Origin: Gammaproteobacteria bacterium
GTDB taxonomy: Bacteria; Pseudomonadota; Gammaproteobacteria; SpSt-1174
Length of the DNA stretch: 51,889 nt
Assembly: GCA_037388465.1 (NCBI GenBank)
Contig: JARRKE010000021.1
Span: 1-51,889, forward strand
Direction of reading: 5' to 3'
In this document: positions 139 through 23,268 of the stretch, one piece after another
Numbering within the stretch: position 1 is the stretch's first letter
Layout: each line of letters begins with the position of its first letter
Made by a program: the position numbers and the translations under genes
Notes under the pieces: model-generated
Seen by the model: only the letters and a program-made list of their open reading frames with translations
What the model was told of the DNA's origin: nothing
Databases searched by the model: none

Positions 139-1335
139 CTAGCGGCCCGTCTTCAATTGCTCAGCCAGGTCGGTCTGCTCCCAGGGCAGGTCGATGTCCG
201 TTCTTCCCACTTGGCCGTAGGCGGCCAGCTTGCGGTACAGCCCGCCATCGAGTTCGCGCGACAGTTGCAGCAGCCTGAACCTGTTCAGAATGCTGGCGGG
301 ACTGAAATCCATATGCGCCTGCAGCCGTTGGGCGATCTCATTCTCATCGAGAGTGGCGGTGCCGAACGTTTCCACCTGAACGCTCACCGGCTGTGCCAGG
401 CCGATGGTGTAGCTCAGCTGCACTTCGCATTCATCGGCCAGCCCGGCCGCAAGCACGTTTTTGGCTGCATAGCGCGCGGCGTAGGCGCCGATGCGGTCGA
501 TCCGCATGGGGTCCTTGCCGCTCAGCGCGGCCCCGCTGTGGCGCGCATATTCGCCATAGGTGTCGACGGCGGTTTTTCTGCCGGTCAGGCCGGAGTGCAG
601 TGACGGCCCACCGCCGATCACGGCGCCCTCCGGGTTGATGAAGATGCGCGTGTTCTTGTCCGGCCGCACCTTCTCGTCTGCGAACGTGGGGTCTATGACA
701 AGGCGTTTCAGATCCTCGCACAACACCTCGATGTCGGGTTGATCCGCAGTGGTCTGGCTGGCGATGAGGGTGATGCTGTGGATGCGGTGTGGTTTGCGGT
801 TGCGGTATTCCACGCCGACCTGGGTCTTGCCGTCGGGCGCGAGATAGGGGAGCTCTTCATTCAGGCGCACCGCGGTGAGACGTCGTGCGAGACGATGGGC
901 GAGCCAGATAGGCAGCGGCATCATGGCCGGAGTCTGGTTGCACGCGAAACCGAACACGGTGACCTGGTTGCGTACGGGCAGGCAATCGATATCCCCGGCG
1001 GCAGAGCGCTCCAGGCAGGTGATGCGTTCCACGTCGGGTGGCAGCTCCGTAAGGCTGGTGAGTATCGTGCAGTCGCGGGCGCTGAATTCACCCTGCCGGT
1101 AACCGACCTGTTCGATGACGCCGCGTGCCACTTCGGTGACGTCCACCTGTGCGCTGGATGCGAACCGGGCTGCGATGAAGACGACGCCGCGCGACACGGC
1201 GCATTCGGCGCTGACGTTGGCGTGGTGATCCTGGGCCATGAAGCGATCGACAATGGCATCGCTGATCTGGTCGCACAGCTTGTCGGGATGGCCTTCGGTG
1301 ACAGAGTCCGAGGTGAACATAAAATCCGATTTCAT
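139..1335 (-). CDS. Divergent S-adenosylmethionine-synthetase (MetK) family protein
   Basis: 398 residues, close to the usual 380-400 of MetK, and alignable along the whole length (GHPDK near 15-19, GLTGRK 249-254, SGKDP 272-276, AAYAARY near 283). Set by eye against E. coli MetK numbering, the ATP/triphosphate residues are kept: H16 (H15), D18 (D17), D168/K170 (D164/K166), R253/K254 (R245/K246), K274 (K266), D280 (D272). The residues that contact L-methionine are all changed: E56 to R57, Q99 to L98, D239 to H247, K270 to R278; and the GAGDQG motif reads PVRNQV, so its Asp is Asn123. The fold and ATP use are likely; synthesis of SAM from methionine is doubtful. The ATG overlaps the stop of the upstream ATPase gene (ATGA), with an AGGAGA ribosome site inside that gene, so the two are translationally coupled. 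A normal metK is expected elsewhere in the genome. Confidence 0.85.
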   Translation of the reverse strand: MKSDFMFTSDSVTEGHPDKLCDQISDAIVDRFMAQDHHANVSAECAVSRGVVFIAARFASSAQVDVTEVARGVIEQVGYRQGEFSARDCTILTSLTELPPDVERITCLERSAAGDIDCLPVRNQVTVFGFACNQTPAMMPLPIWLAHRLARRLTAVRLNEELPYLAPDGKTQVGVEYRNRKPHRIHSITLIASQTTADQPDIEVLCEDLKRLVIDPTFADEKVRPDKNTRIFINPEGAVIGGGPSLHSGLTGRKTAVDTYGEYARHSGAALSGKDPMRIDRIGAYAARYAAKNVLAAGLADECEVQLSYTIGLAQPVSVQVETFGTATLDENEIAQRLQAHMDFSPASILNRFRLLQLSRELDGGLYRKLAAYGQVGRTDIDLPWEQTDLAEQLKTGR

Positions 1336-4300
1336 GTTGCCTGCTCTCCTGTGTCGGAGGATGTGTCGTCTGTTTCCCTGCTCGAGTGCAGTGCCGGGGA
1401 TGATGTGTGCGTGGCCGATTTGATGGCCTCATTGATCAGCAATGGTGCCGCCGAACCGGCCGCAATGACCAGGGCATCGAGCAGACCGACTGGCGTGATG
1501 CCGAGCAGGCGCCGCAGCGGCGGCAGGGCGATAGCGCTCAGCTGCAGTATGACCGAGCCGCCGATGGCGATATTCAGGTAGGGATTTGAGGGGCGCCTGC
1601 GCATTTCAAACAGGCTGTGACGTTCGGAACGGCAGCTGAGCGCGTGCAGCAGCTGGGCAAGCGTCAGACTCATGAAGGCGTGCGTGCTGGCGCGCGGACC
1701 GGGGCCGTAGCGCAGCAGTGCATAAGCGTAGCTGGTCAGCGTGCCCGTGGTAATGACCGCTGATTGCATGCCGAGCCGCATCAGGTCCCGGTTGCGTATG
1801 ATGGGCTCTTCGGGGCGGCGCGGCGGTTGGGCGAGCACGTCTTCCTCGGGTGGCTCCAGGGCCAGCGCCAGGCCGGGGAAGATGTCGGTGATCAGATTGA
1901 TCCACAGCAGCTGCATGGGGTTCAGCGGCGTTGCAACGCCGGCCGTGACGGCCGCCAGCATGACCTCGATTTCGCTGAAGTTGGTCGAGAGCAGGAATTG
2001 CAGCGCCTTGCGGATGTTGTTGTAGATGGTGCGCCCCTGCCGCACGGCGACCACCATGGTCTGCAGGTTGTCGTCCTCGAGGATGACGCCGGCGACCGAG
2101 CGTGCGACGTCGGTGCCGCTATCGCCCATGGCGACCCCGATGTCCGCCGCCTTGAGCGCGGGGCCGTCGTTGATGCCGTCGCCGGTCATGGCGACCACGG
2201 CGCCGCCGGATTGCAGGGCGCGCACCACCTGCAGCTTGTTCGCCGGGCTGACGCGGGCGAAGACCTGGACCCGTTTGACCAAGCCTGCAAGCAGTTCTGC
2301 GTCCATCGTCTCCAGCCGGCTGGATTCCAGAATCTCCAGCGGACCGCCGTTGCTGAGGTTCAGGGCTTTGCCGATGGTATAAGCCGTTCCCGCCTGATCG
2401 CCGGTGATCATCACCGTCGAGATGCCGGCATCGTGAAAACGCGACATCAGCTCGGGCATGCCCGGGCGCACGGGGTCGGCAAGCCCCACCAGGCCGAGCC
2501 AGGTCAGGGCGGGTTGCGCCTCGAAGGGCGTGTCGGCATCGGTTCGCGCATAGGCGACGCCGAGCACGCGCAGCGACTCGCCGGCCATGGCGTCGTTGCC
2601 GCTCAGGATCATGTTGCGCTCGTGCTCGCCCAGCGGTTTTGCGCTGCCTTCGTGCAGGTACGAATCGCACATCGTCAGGACTTCCGTCGGGCTGCCCTTG
2701 ACGGCGAGCAGTTGGGTGCCGTCCGCGGCGCGGTGCAGCGTCTGCATGTAGTGCCGGTCTTCCGAGCGGTAGTCGATCTTGAGGCGCGGATAGGCATGCC
2801 TCAGGGCCGGGACGTCGAGACCCGCATCGCTCGCGAGCTCCAGCAGGGCGCTTTCGGTGAAGGAACCGGTTATGCGGCCGTTGTGCTGCGCGTCGTACTC
2901 CGCTTCGTTGCACAGGACGAGCGTTTGCAGCAGTGGCGGCATGTCGGCGTCGTCCAGCGGAGCGAATGCCTGGCCGTCGATGGTGAAGCGATCATCCTCG
3001 ATGCGTATTTCGCGCAGGCCATTGTGCACCGCCAGCGCCGCCATGCGGTTCATGGTGAGCGTGCCGGTCTTGTCCAGGCAGATGACCTGCACCGAGCCCA
3101 GTGTTTCTACGGCGTCCAGGTGGCGGACCAGGACGTTTTTCCGGCGCATGTCGCGGATGCCCAGTGCCAGCGTGGTGGTGGCGACGGTGGGCAGGCCTTC
3201 CGGGACCGCGGCGACGGCCAGCGATATGGCGCTTTTCAGCATTTCCAGCATGCCGTAGCCGCGCAGCAGCCCGACCGCGAACACGCCCGTGCATACCGCA
3301 CCGCTCAACAGGGCGAGTTGCGTGCTCATCTTGTCGAGCTGCAGTTCCATGGGGGTGTCCGGTGCATGTGATTCGCCGACCAGTGCCTGGATCTGCCCCA
3401 GCTCAGTCGCGCTGCCGGTGGCGACGACGGCCGCCACCGCACTGCCCCCCGTGACGTGCGTGCCCATGTGAATCATGTTGGCGCGATCGCCGAGCGGCGC
3501 ATCGTCGGGTATGCGCACCGCGGCGCTTTTCGGTACCGGCATGCTTTCGCCGGTCAACGCCGCTTCATCCACGGACAGCCGGTCGGTGCGCAACAACCGC
3601 GCGTCCGCGGGGATGCGGGTGCCGGGTGTCAGAAGCAGGATATCGCCGGCCACCAGTTGATCCACGGGGACGATCGTGGCCGCGGCATTGCGCAATACCG
3701 TGGCATGGTGCGGGCCGGTGTCGTCGAGACTCGCGATGATGCGTTCCGACTGACGCTCCGTAACGAAACCGATGCCGGCGTTGATCGCGACCACGCCCAT
3801 GATGACGATCGCGTCCGCCACGCCGCCCGTCAGTACGGAGACCACGGCGGAGGCCGCCAGCAGGCCCACCGGCAGGCTCATGAATTGTTCCGTCAAGATG
3901 GAAAGTTCGCTGCGGTGCGTCGTGCGTGGCAGCCGGTTCGGACCCCATCGCCGCAATCGGTCCAGGGCTTCCTTGCTGCTCAGGCCGTCGGTGGCCGAAA
4001 CGGTGAGAGATTCGAGCACCTGCGTGACGCCGCGCGCATGCCAGGGGCGGAGTAATTGGGTGTTCTCCACCGGGTGTATTTCGGGGCGTTGCGGATTGCG
4101 CCGGGCGCGGTAACGCTCCAGCGAGGTGATCTTGCCGCCTGCGGGCGGTTCGTCAGGGGAGATTTCCTGAGAAGGGGCTGTGCCGGAAAGCGTGTCCAGG
4201 TGAGCGGCTATCGTCCTGGCGATCTGCGTGAGAGACAGGGCCGGGGCGAATTCGATCAGCAGGTTGCCGGTCAGGGCGTTGGCCCGCGCGCGCGCGATGC

Positions 4301-4514
4301 CGTCCGTTTGATGCAACAGCGCCTCCAGGCGTTGTCCGAGCACCTCGTCGTGGTGCAGCGCGGGAAGGTGAAACCGTGCGCGACCGGCTACAGCGGTGTG
4401 GACGGGAATGACGGAGGAGGTATGCGCGGGAACGGTCGGTTGGGCCGGCGCTTGCGTAATCCGATGAGGGTCCTGATTCTGTGGGCGCCGTATCATGCCG
4501 TTCCAGGATGCCAT
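1332..4514 (-). CDS. P-type cation-transporting ATPase, Ca/Mn-pump-like, with N-terminal HMA-like domain
   Basis: 1060 residues. Around 38-105 there is an HMA_2-like ferredoxin-fold domain without a CxxC metal site. Cation-ATPase N domain about 160-200, then TM segments. Actuator motif TGES 321-324; TM4 motif PEGLP 438-442; phosphorylated Asp481 in DKTGT; nucleotide-site KGSP 606-609; TGDQ 704-707; hinge TGDGIND 777-783. TM5 has a conserved Asn and Glu (STNFSE) and TM6 has NLITD, matching residues of calcium pump site II; the site-I Glu of TM8 is Gln-like (LAQLLHAL), as in PMR1-type single-site pumps. This supports Ca2+ or Mn2+ export rather than P1B heavy-metal export, though the HMA-like N-terminus is more usual in P1B or mycobacterial Ctp enzymes. 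The final 25 residues are a polar tail. The first ATG is used; a second at codon 7 is possible and neither has a strong ribosome site. Confidence 0.93.
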   Translation of the reverse strand: MASWNGMIRRPQNQDPHRITQAPAQPTVPAHTSSVIPVHTAVAGRARFHLPALHHDEVLGQRLEALLHQTDGIARARANALTGNLLIEFAPALSLTQIARTIAAHLDTLSGTAPSQEISPDEPPAGGKITSLERYRARRNPQRPEIHPVENTQLLRPWHARGVTQVLESLTVSATDGLSSKEALDRLRRWGPNRLPRTTHRSELSILTEQFMSLPVGLLAASAVVSVLTGGVADAIVIMGVVAINAGIGFVTERQSERIIASLDDTGPHHATVLRNAAATIVPVDQLVAGDILLLTPGTRIPADARLLRTDRLSVDEAALTGESMPVPKSAAVRIPDDAPLGDRANMIHMGTHVTGGSAVAAVVATGSATELGQIQALVGESHAPDTPMELQLDKMSTQLALLSGAVCTGVFAVGLLRGYGMLEMLKSAISLAVAAVPEGLPTVATTTLALGIRDMRRKNVLVRHLDAVETLGSVQVICLDKTGTLTMNRMAALAVHNGLREIRIEDDRFTIDGQAFAPLDDADMPPLLQTLVLCNEAEYDAQHNGRITGSFTESALLELASDAGLDVPALRHAYPRLKIDYRSEDRHYMQTLHRAADGTQLLAVKGSPTEVLTMCDSYLHEGSAKPLGEHERNMILSGNDAMAGESLRVLGVAYARTDADTPFEAQPALTWLGLVGLADPVRPGMPELMSRFHDAGISTVMITGDQAGTAYTIGKALNLSNGGPLEILESSRLETMDAELLAGLVKRVQVFARVSPANKLQVVRALQSGGAVVAMTGDGINDGPALKAADIGVAMGDSGTDVARSVAGVILEDDNLQTMVVAVRQGRTIYNNIRKALQFLLSTNFSEIEVMLAAVTAGVATPLNPMQLLWINLITDIFPGLALALEPPEEDVLAQPPRRPEEPIIRNRDLMRLGMQSAVITTGTLTSYAYALLRYGPGPRASTHAFMSLTLAQLLHALSCRSERHSLFEMRRRPSNPYLNIAIGGSVILQLSAIALPPLRRLLGITPVGLLDALVIAAGSAAPLLINEAIKSATHTSSPALHSSRETDDTSSDTGEQAT

Positions 4515-21514: not shown

Positions 21515-23268
21515 ATGTCGGAAGGTTTCGATTCCAAATCCTTTTTGAAGGCGCTCACCCATCGACCGGGCGTGTACCGCATGCTCGGCCCGGACCGCGA
21601 GATCCTGTACGTCGGCAAGGCCAAGGACCTGCGCAAACGCGTTTCGAGTTATTTCCGGCGCAATCAGCCCAGCCCGCGCATCGCCTCCATGGTGCGCCAG
21701 ATCCAGGGCATCGAGGTTACGGTCACCAATACCGAGGCCGAAGCGCTGCTGCTGGAGAGCAATCTCATCAAGCAGCACCGGCCGCGCTACAACGTCATAT
21801 TCCGGGACGACAAGAGCTATCCCTATATCTACATGGCGACGGAGCATCCGTTCCCGCGCCTCGGGTTTCATCGCGGCGCACGCCGCGGCAAGGGCCGCTA
21901 TTTTGGTCCCTATCCGAGCGCGGCCGCGGTGCGCGAAACCCTCGACCTGCTGCAAAAGGTGTTTCGCGTGCGCCAGTGCGAGGACAGCTTTTACAACAAC
22001 CGCTCGCGTCCCTGCCTGCAGTACCAGATCAAGCGCTGCGCGGGCCCCTGCGTGGGGCTGGTCTCGGCGGAGGATTATGCGCAGGACGTGGCCCACACCA
22101 TCCAGTTTCTGGAAGGGCGCAGCAGCGACGTGATCGACGATCTGGTGCGGCAGATGGATGCCGCCGCCGAGCAGCTCAAGTACGAACGCGCCGCGGTATT
22201 GCGAGACCAGATCGAGAATCTGCGCAAGGTGGCGTCACAGCAATACGTCACCGCCGAGGCCGGTGATGTCGACCTGTTCGCCTGCGAGGTCAGCGCCAGC
22301 AGCGCCTGCGTGCAGGTATTCAACATCCGCCACGGCCACAACCTGGGCAACCGCAGTTATTTCCCCGCGAAGTGCCGGGGGAGATCCTCGCCAGCCATGC
22401 CCTGATGGACGAGGCGGCGCTTGCCGAGATGCTCAGCGACAAGCAGGGCCGCAAGGTCAGCATCGCCACGCGCCTGCGCGGCACCCGCGCGCGCTGGATG
22501 AAGCTGGCACGGCAGAACGCGCAGCACGCCCTGGCCGCGCGCCTGGCGTTGCACGGCAACCAGCAGGCCCGCATCGTCGCGCTGCAGGAGGCTCTGGGGT
22601 TGGAGGCGCCGCCCGCGCGCATCGAGTGCTTCGACATCAGCCACACGCAGGGCGAGGCGACGGTGGCCTCCTGCGTGGTGTTCGGCCCCGAAGGACCGGT
22701 CAAGAGCGCCTACCGGCGTTTCAACATCGAGGGGATCGAGCCCGGCGACGACTACGGGGCCATGAAGCAGGCGCTGACCCGGCGCTATGCGCGCCTGGTG
22801 AAAGGCGAGGGTACCCTGCCGGACGTGCTGCTGATCGACGGCGGACGCGGCCAGGTGCGGCAGGCGCTGGACGTGTTGACGGAGCAGGGCGTCCAGGGTG
22901 TCCGCCTGATCGGAGTGGCCAAGGGCGAGGGGCGACGTCCCGAGCTCGACCGGCTCGTGTTGAGCGATGCCAAGACCATGATTAAACTGCCTGGAGATTC
23001 CAAGGCTATGCACCTGATCCAGCAGGTTCGCGACGAGGCGCACCGGTTCGCCATAACGGGACACCGCGCCCAGCGTGCACGCCGCCGCAGCACGTCGCCG
23101 CTGGAACAGATTGCGGGTCTCGGTCCCAAGCGCCGACAGGCGTTGCTGCGGCAGTTCGGCGGGTTGCGCGGCGTGACCCAGGCCGGCGTCGAGGAGCTGG
23201 CCAAGGTGCCCGGCATCAGCAAGCACCTGGCCCAGCAGGTTTACGACCATTTTCACAGTGACGCCTGA
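21515..23268 (+). pseudogene. uvrC: Excinuclease ABC subunit C, disrupted (frameshift plus internal deletion)
   Basis: Two overlapping frames: 21515-22405 (296 aa) and 22372-23268 (298 aa from a GTG). The first holds the GIY-YIG nuclease (PGVYRMLG...ILYVGKAKDLRKR) and the UVR domain (about 200-235). It then leaves the family after NRSYFP and runs 12 unrelated residues to a stop. The second starts in the family at VPGEIL and carries the RNase-H-like nuclease (ECFDISHTQGEATVASCVVF) and the C-terminal HhH domain (GLGPKRRQALL, VPGISKHLAQQV). E. coli UvrC has about 28 residues between those joints; here FP-RE-VPGEIL is nearly contiguous, so about 25-30 codons are missing and the shift suggests a deletion of 3n+1 bases near 22363-22372. 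Either a real lesion, leaving nucleotide-excision repair impaired, or an assembly error. Both halves otherwise look intact. Confidence 0.9.

Follow-up and report, generated by a model that had tools for sequence, protein, structure and literature searches.

A widespread MetK-like family with an apparently remodelled adenosyl-methionine site that co-evolves with a P-type ATPase

Our analysis of a window of 51,889 nucleotides of a gammaproteobacterial genome (by the window we mean the whole stretch of DNA considered) indicates that its metK-like gene, at 139 to 1335 on the minus strand, belongs to a clade of divergent MetK paralogues that co-occurs and co-evolves with one family of P-type ATPases far beyond what species history would give. 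As judged by alignment, the triphosphate and metal half of the active site is kept in this clade, while the adenosyl-methionine half has been rebuilt, bases having taken the place of acids. We hold with moderate confidence that the protein no longer makes SAM and that it would have acquired a new function, as an enzyme whose second substrate is an anion and which acts as a partner of the pump.

The assignment of the 398-residue product rests on the reading frame, homology, alignment and a tree. The frame is open across all 398 codons with no internal stop, and the protein is a full-length homologue that matches the N, M and C domains of Pfam S-AdoMet_synt, shares 40-45% identity with MATs and scores 367 bits against the TIGR01034 metK model, whose cut-off is 309. 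Its alignment with E. coli MetK is gap-free around each named residue and confirms every substitution read in the first-pass annotation: E56, Q99, D119, D239 and K270 of the E. coli protein become Arg57 (codon at 1165 to 1167), Leu98 (1042 to 1044), Asn123 (967 to 969), His247 (595 to 597) and Arg278 (502 to 504), all on the minus strand, and the GAGDQG motif that contains D119 becomes PVRNQV. Unchanged in the same alignment are H16, D18, D168, K170, R253, K254, K274 and D280. The numbering follows an E. coli reference sequence that we take to be correct, and the ordinary MetKs of the home genome (L001 and L002) agree at the named sites.

In EcMAT the glutamate E55 contacts the methionine amino group, Q98 and K269 contact its carboxylate, D238 (D239 counting the initial Met) binds both the ribose hydroxyls and the methionine amino group, F230 is the stacking partner of adenine, and His14 is thought to protonate O5' during the adenosyl step (PMC3853416). 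The methionine amino, carboxylate and ribose contacts provided by E56, Q99, D239 and K270 are absent from the MetK-like protein, and the adenine-stacking Phe is Val239 in the window protein. The first-pass annotation had described the ATP site as intact and only the methionine side as lost. Its account stands for the triphosphate and metal ligands, which are kept, but the change extends beyond the methionine side, since the ribose-binding Asp is replaced in all members of the family and the adenine-stacking Phe is present in only about half of them. The AF2 model of the protein, with pLDDT 87, superposes on solved MATs with Z of about 47; residues 255-272, a stretch that adjoins the triphosphate lysines, have pLDDT below 50 in this model.

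These substitutions are shared far beyond the window. From the 192 relatives that a scan of species genomes returned we retained 80 loci, with identities of 54-67%, and the MetK-like clade comprises about 85 relatives in at least seven phyla, its carriers lying in Nitrospirota, Cyanobacteriota, Thermodesulfobacteriota, Myxococcota, Pseudomonadota, Planctomycetota and Binatota. In an unrooted tree a branch with support 100 separates the MetK-like relatives from 35 ordinary MetKs, so that the window protein lies outside the ordinary MetK clade. Within the clade D239 is replaced by His and K270 by Arg (85/85 each), F263 by Leu and E56 by Arg or His (86/86 each), whereas these sites hold D, K, F and E in the 35 ordinary MetKs. 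Members added later carry the same His and Arg wherever the motif is readable. Sites 56 and 99 covary: His56 comes with His99 in 17 cases out of 17, and Arg56 is never found with His99. On the conserved side (E. coli numbering), H15, D17, E43, K246, K266 and D272 are invariant in all complete rows of the clade alignment, and one member added after the main set (G081) has Glu in place of D272; R245 is kept in 83/85, the other two having Lys, and K166 is Lys in 74/85. The catalytic His (EcMAT His14) is present in 83 of 83 members and the ribose Asp D164 in 83 of 85.

The median dN/dS of close relatives is 0.07, and the family is under purifying selection. Because the new residues are fixed throughout the subfamily, because sites 56 and 99 covary and because dN/dS is so low, the substitutions reflect neither chance nor decay, and the earlier suggestion of a selected change is upheld. 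A phage or plasmid origin of the gene was considered and rejected: the MetK genes of viral contigs (L174-L193) retain the ordinary D and K where these positions are readable, and plasmid matches reach at most 48% identity among the matches listed.

Most carriers have an ordinary metK as well. A canonical metK elsewhere in the genome was one of the checks proposed in the first-pass annotation, and the home genome contains two ordinary copies, on contigs C7 (L002) and C126 (L001), which occupy different places in the tree; the second copy lies on a 7.8-kb contig and may be either a genuine duplicate or a contaminant. A full second, ordinary metK is present in 25 of the 30 carriers examined; of the other five, one carries a metK fragment where a contig ends, and four, all of them draft genomes, showed no second metK.

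The gene's constant neighbour is a P-type ATPase of 1060 residues encoded at 1332 to 4514 on the minus strand, identified by its reading frame, domains and motifs as a type II cation pump with an N-terminal HMA_2 domain (residues 33-90, at 4245 to 4418 on the minus strand, found by domain search). The end of the ATPase gene and the beginning of the metK-like gene have 4 nt in common (ATGA), and a 4-nt overlap recurs in 22 of the assessable loci. The same ATPase lies directly upstream on the same strand in all 76 loci with enough upstream sequence, 75 of them counted by script and one (L040) added because its match reached deeper into the MetK-like gene than the script's limit; four further loci, cut by a contig end, stand outside this count. 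The clade with shared substitutions and a shared ATPase neighbour that the first-pass annotation proposed to look for does, then, exist. In random draws of genomes the two families co-occur in 2/2 cases in the home phylum (150 genomes), 14/14 in Nitrospirota (148 genomes) and 11/11 in Cyanobacteriota (194 genomes), nine further cyanobacterial matches at 48-51% identity being counted apart as what we take to be ordinary MetK. Pairwise distances of the ATPase and the MetK-like protein correlate with r of 0.84, while the values for the ordinary MetK encoded in those genomes are 0.47 and 0.31; the partial r is 0.83, and none of 2000 permutations reached as high a value. The two genes move together as one unit, apparently through horizontal transfer.

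The ATPase occurs twice without the MetK-like gene, and the pump thus has no strict need of it: in G286 the ATPase sits within a related island (DUF5132, HMA_2, ATPase) that lacks the gene, and in G427 a cyanobacterial ATPase of the pump family (L195) has neither the HMA_2 N-terminus nor a MetK-like neighbour, on a branch longer than its sister's. In G548 an extra reading frame separates the ATPase from a MetK-like gene whose N-terminus is damaged, and in G249 the contig stops after the ATPase, where the MetK-like gene would be sought. An apparent ATPase-MetK fusion (a 1268-residue frame at L077) was rejected, its first 870 or so residues being an off-frame reading of the ATPase gene.

The ATPase has all of the motifs TGES, DKTGT, KGxP and TGDGIND. 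On alignment its ion-site residues (PEGLP, N845, E848, N873, D877) match those of SERCA and SPCA, and from this match a divalent cation is the likely substrate. The protein scores below both curated cut-offs for its relatives, with 634 bits against 798 for TIGR01522 and 540 against 703 for TIGR01116. Arg583 aligns with the adenine-stacking Phe of SERCA (F487), a position that is Arg in 65/65 of the pump family and Phe in 16/16 ordinary pumps. We considered whether this loss is tied to the MetK-like gene and rejected the idea: both ATPases without the gene also have Arg, which is therefore a trait of the pump family and not of the pairing.

In many loci the cassette is surrounded by HMA_2 and DUF5132 proteins, CDF and CorA-like transporters (the CorA-like identity being our own call from the sequence) and an EcsC protein, neighbours that fit metal homeostasis. 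An island recurs upstream of the ATPase (L007, L009, L012, L014, L017, L171, L173 and others), made up of a DUF5132 protein of about 100 residues, an HMA_2 protein of about 160 residues and a repetitive helical protein of about 234 residues, rich in Ala, Gly and Val and with no Pfam match. With HMA proteins beside a pump, ferrosome (fez) clusters were a candidate parallel, set aside because the ATPase at the locus is type II and not P1B. Elsewhere in the window, UvrC (21515 to 23268, plus strand) is apparently split into two overlapping reading frames in different frames, holding its N-terminal and C-terminal parts; a frameshift or an assembly error is possible.

How could a MetK fold serve a cation pump? 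In the reading we prefer, that of a neofunctionalised partner enzyme, the fold, the Mg, K and triphosphate ligands and the catalytic His are retained, as the sequence shows, and the methionine-holding residues together with one of the two ribose-holding residues have given way to a fixed new set (His247, Arg278, Arg or His57, and often Leu98 and Asn123). The protein would then still bind Mg-ATP or another triphosphate and reuse the old chemistry, by attack at C5', by cleavage of the triphosphate, or by both. Since the pocket that would hold the second substrate has changed from acidic to basic, this substrate would probably not be a zwitterionic amino acid but an anion, a suggestion drawn from the charge of the residues that replace E56 and D239. 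The product, or the freed tripolyphosphate, may support or tune the pump, a likely divalent-cation P-type ATPase of which the gene would be a dedicated partner, inherited with it as a two-gene cassette. More specifically, and tentatively, the enzyme may transfer an adenosyl (or other nucleosyl) group from a triphosphate to an anionic acceptor other than methionine, with the product or the by-product tripolyphosphate used by, or controlling, the co-inherited pump, itself without the usual adenine-stacking Phe.

We consider it rather unlikely that the protein is instead a non-catalytic or slow regulatory subunit, a sensor of ATP (or of PPPi, K+ or a divalent ion) that attaches to the pump and adjusts how active it is. 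Such a subunit would naturally be encoded strictly next to the ATPase, with translational overlap, and co-evolve strongly with it, as is seen here, and in G427 the HMA_2 N-terminus and the MetK-like gene are missing together, on a longer branch. This joint absence is, however, a single case and thus an anecdote, and the invariance of the His14 equivalent and of nearly all triphosphate ligands across several phyla exceeds what a pure sensor would need. Improbable, in our judgement, is a tripolyphosphatase or polyphosphatase, which would run only the second MetK half-reaction and accept further phosphates in the basic pocket that formerly held SAM. The preserved triphosphate half, the rebuilding of the other half with basic residues and the half-conserved adenine-stacking Phe agree with it, but the His that serves as acid in adenosyl transfer is retained, as is the ribose Asp D164, although a pure tripolyphosphatase should need neither, which favours retained adenosyl chemistry; nor were polyphosphate genes recognised beside the MetK-like gene.

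We regard it as highly improbable that the protein has remained a SAM synthase whose methionine site is unusual and which provides SAM locally or under stress. It does share the MATs' fold and much of their sequence, four draft carriers have no other metK, and archaeal MATs, which are still MATs, bind the methionine carboxylate by quite different residues (PMC3853416), so that carboxylate contacts can evidently change and SAM synthesis could survive the loss of E56, Q99 and K270 by itself. The case against it consequently rests on D239, which is Asp in 35/35 ordinary MetKs and in the viral MetKs that were read and is reported in archaeal and bacterial MAT alike (PMC3853416). In the MetK-like clade both acids that contact the methionine amino group (E56 and D239) have become bases in every member, and SAM synthesis would leave the link to one pump unexplained. 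A decaying metK duplicate, which the many differences from ordinary MetK around the active site might bring to mind, is contradicted by intact reading frames in several phyla, a dN/dS of 0.07 and new residues fixed within a single clade, and can be dismissed.

In the literature MATs are viewed as housekeeping enzymes, the only ones known to catalyse their reaction (PMC3853416). If our preferred reading, a partner enzyme that no longer makes SAM, is right, this widespread, misannotated clade, with its tie to a single kind of cation pump, would give the MetK fold a new function and P-type ATPases a new type of partner. Each of the 43 proteins scanned, comprising 42 clade members and one ordinary MetK, matched TIGR01034 with E of 1e-91 or better and near the trusted score, and genome pipelines will therefore name clade members SAM synthases; as judged from their residues, the model misnames them. 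A metK call by TIGR01034 would then not always imply that SAM is made, a point that matters for metabolic models and for the use of metK as a phylogenetic marker. In the open-access literature on MetK paralogues, MAT pseudoenzymes, FUPA families and HMA_2/DUF5132 loci we did not find the MetK-like/ATPase pair described.

With MetK/MAT (TIGR01034, PF00438, PF02772, PF02773) the MetK-like protein shares whole-length homology at 40-45% identity, the three-domain fold (Z of about 47), the residues that bind triphosphate, Mg and K, and the catalytic His. It differs in the fixed replacements of E56, Q99, D239 and K270, in the loss of the ribose Asp D239 and the GAGDQG loop, and in forming a separate clade with an obligate ATPase neighbour. 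The partner ATPase, for its part, shares TGES, DKTGT, KGxP, TGDGIND and the ion-site residues with the type II Ca2+/Mn2+ ATPases (SERCA, SPCA/PMR1, LMCA1), but it carries an N-terminal extension of about 150 residues with HMA_2, has Arg for F487, falls under the TIGR01522 and TIGR01116 cut-offs and forms a clade of its own.
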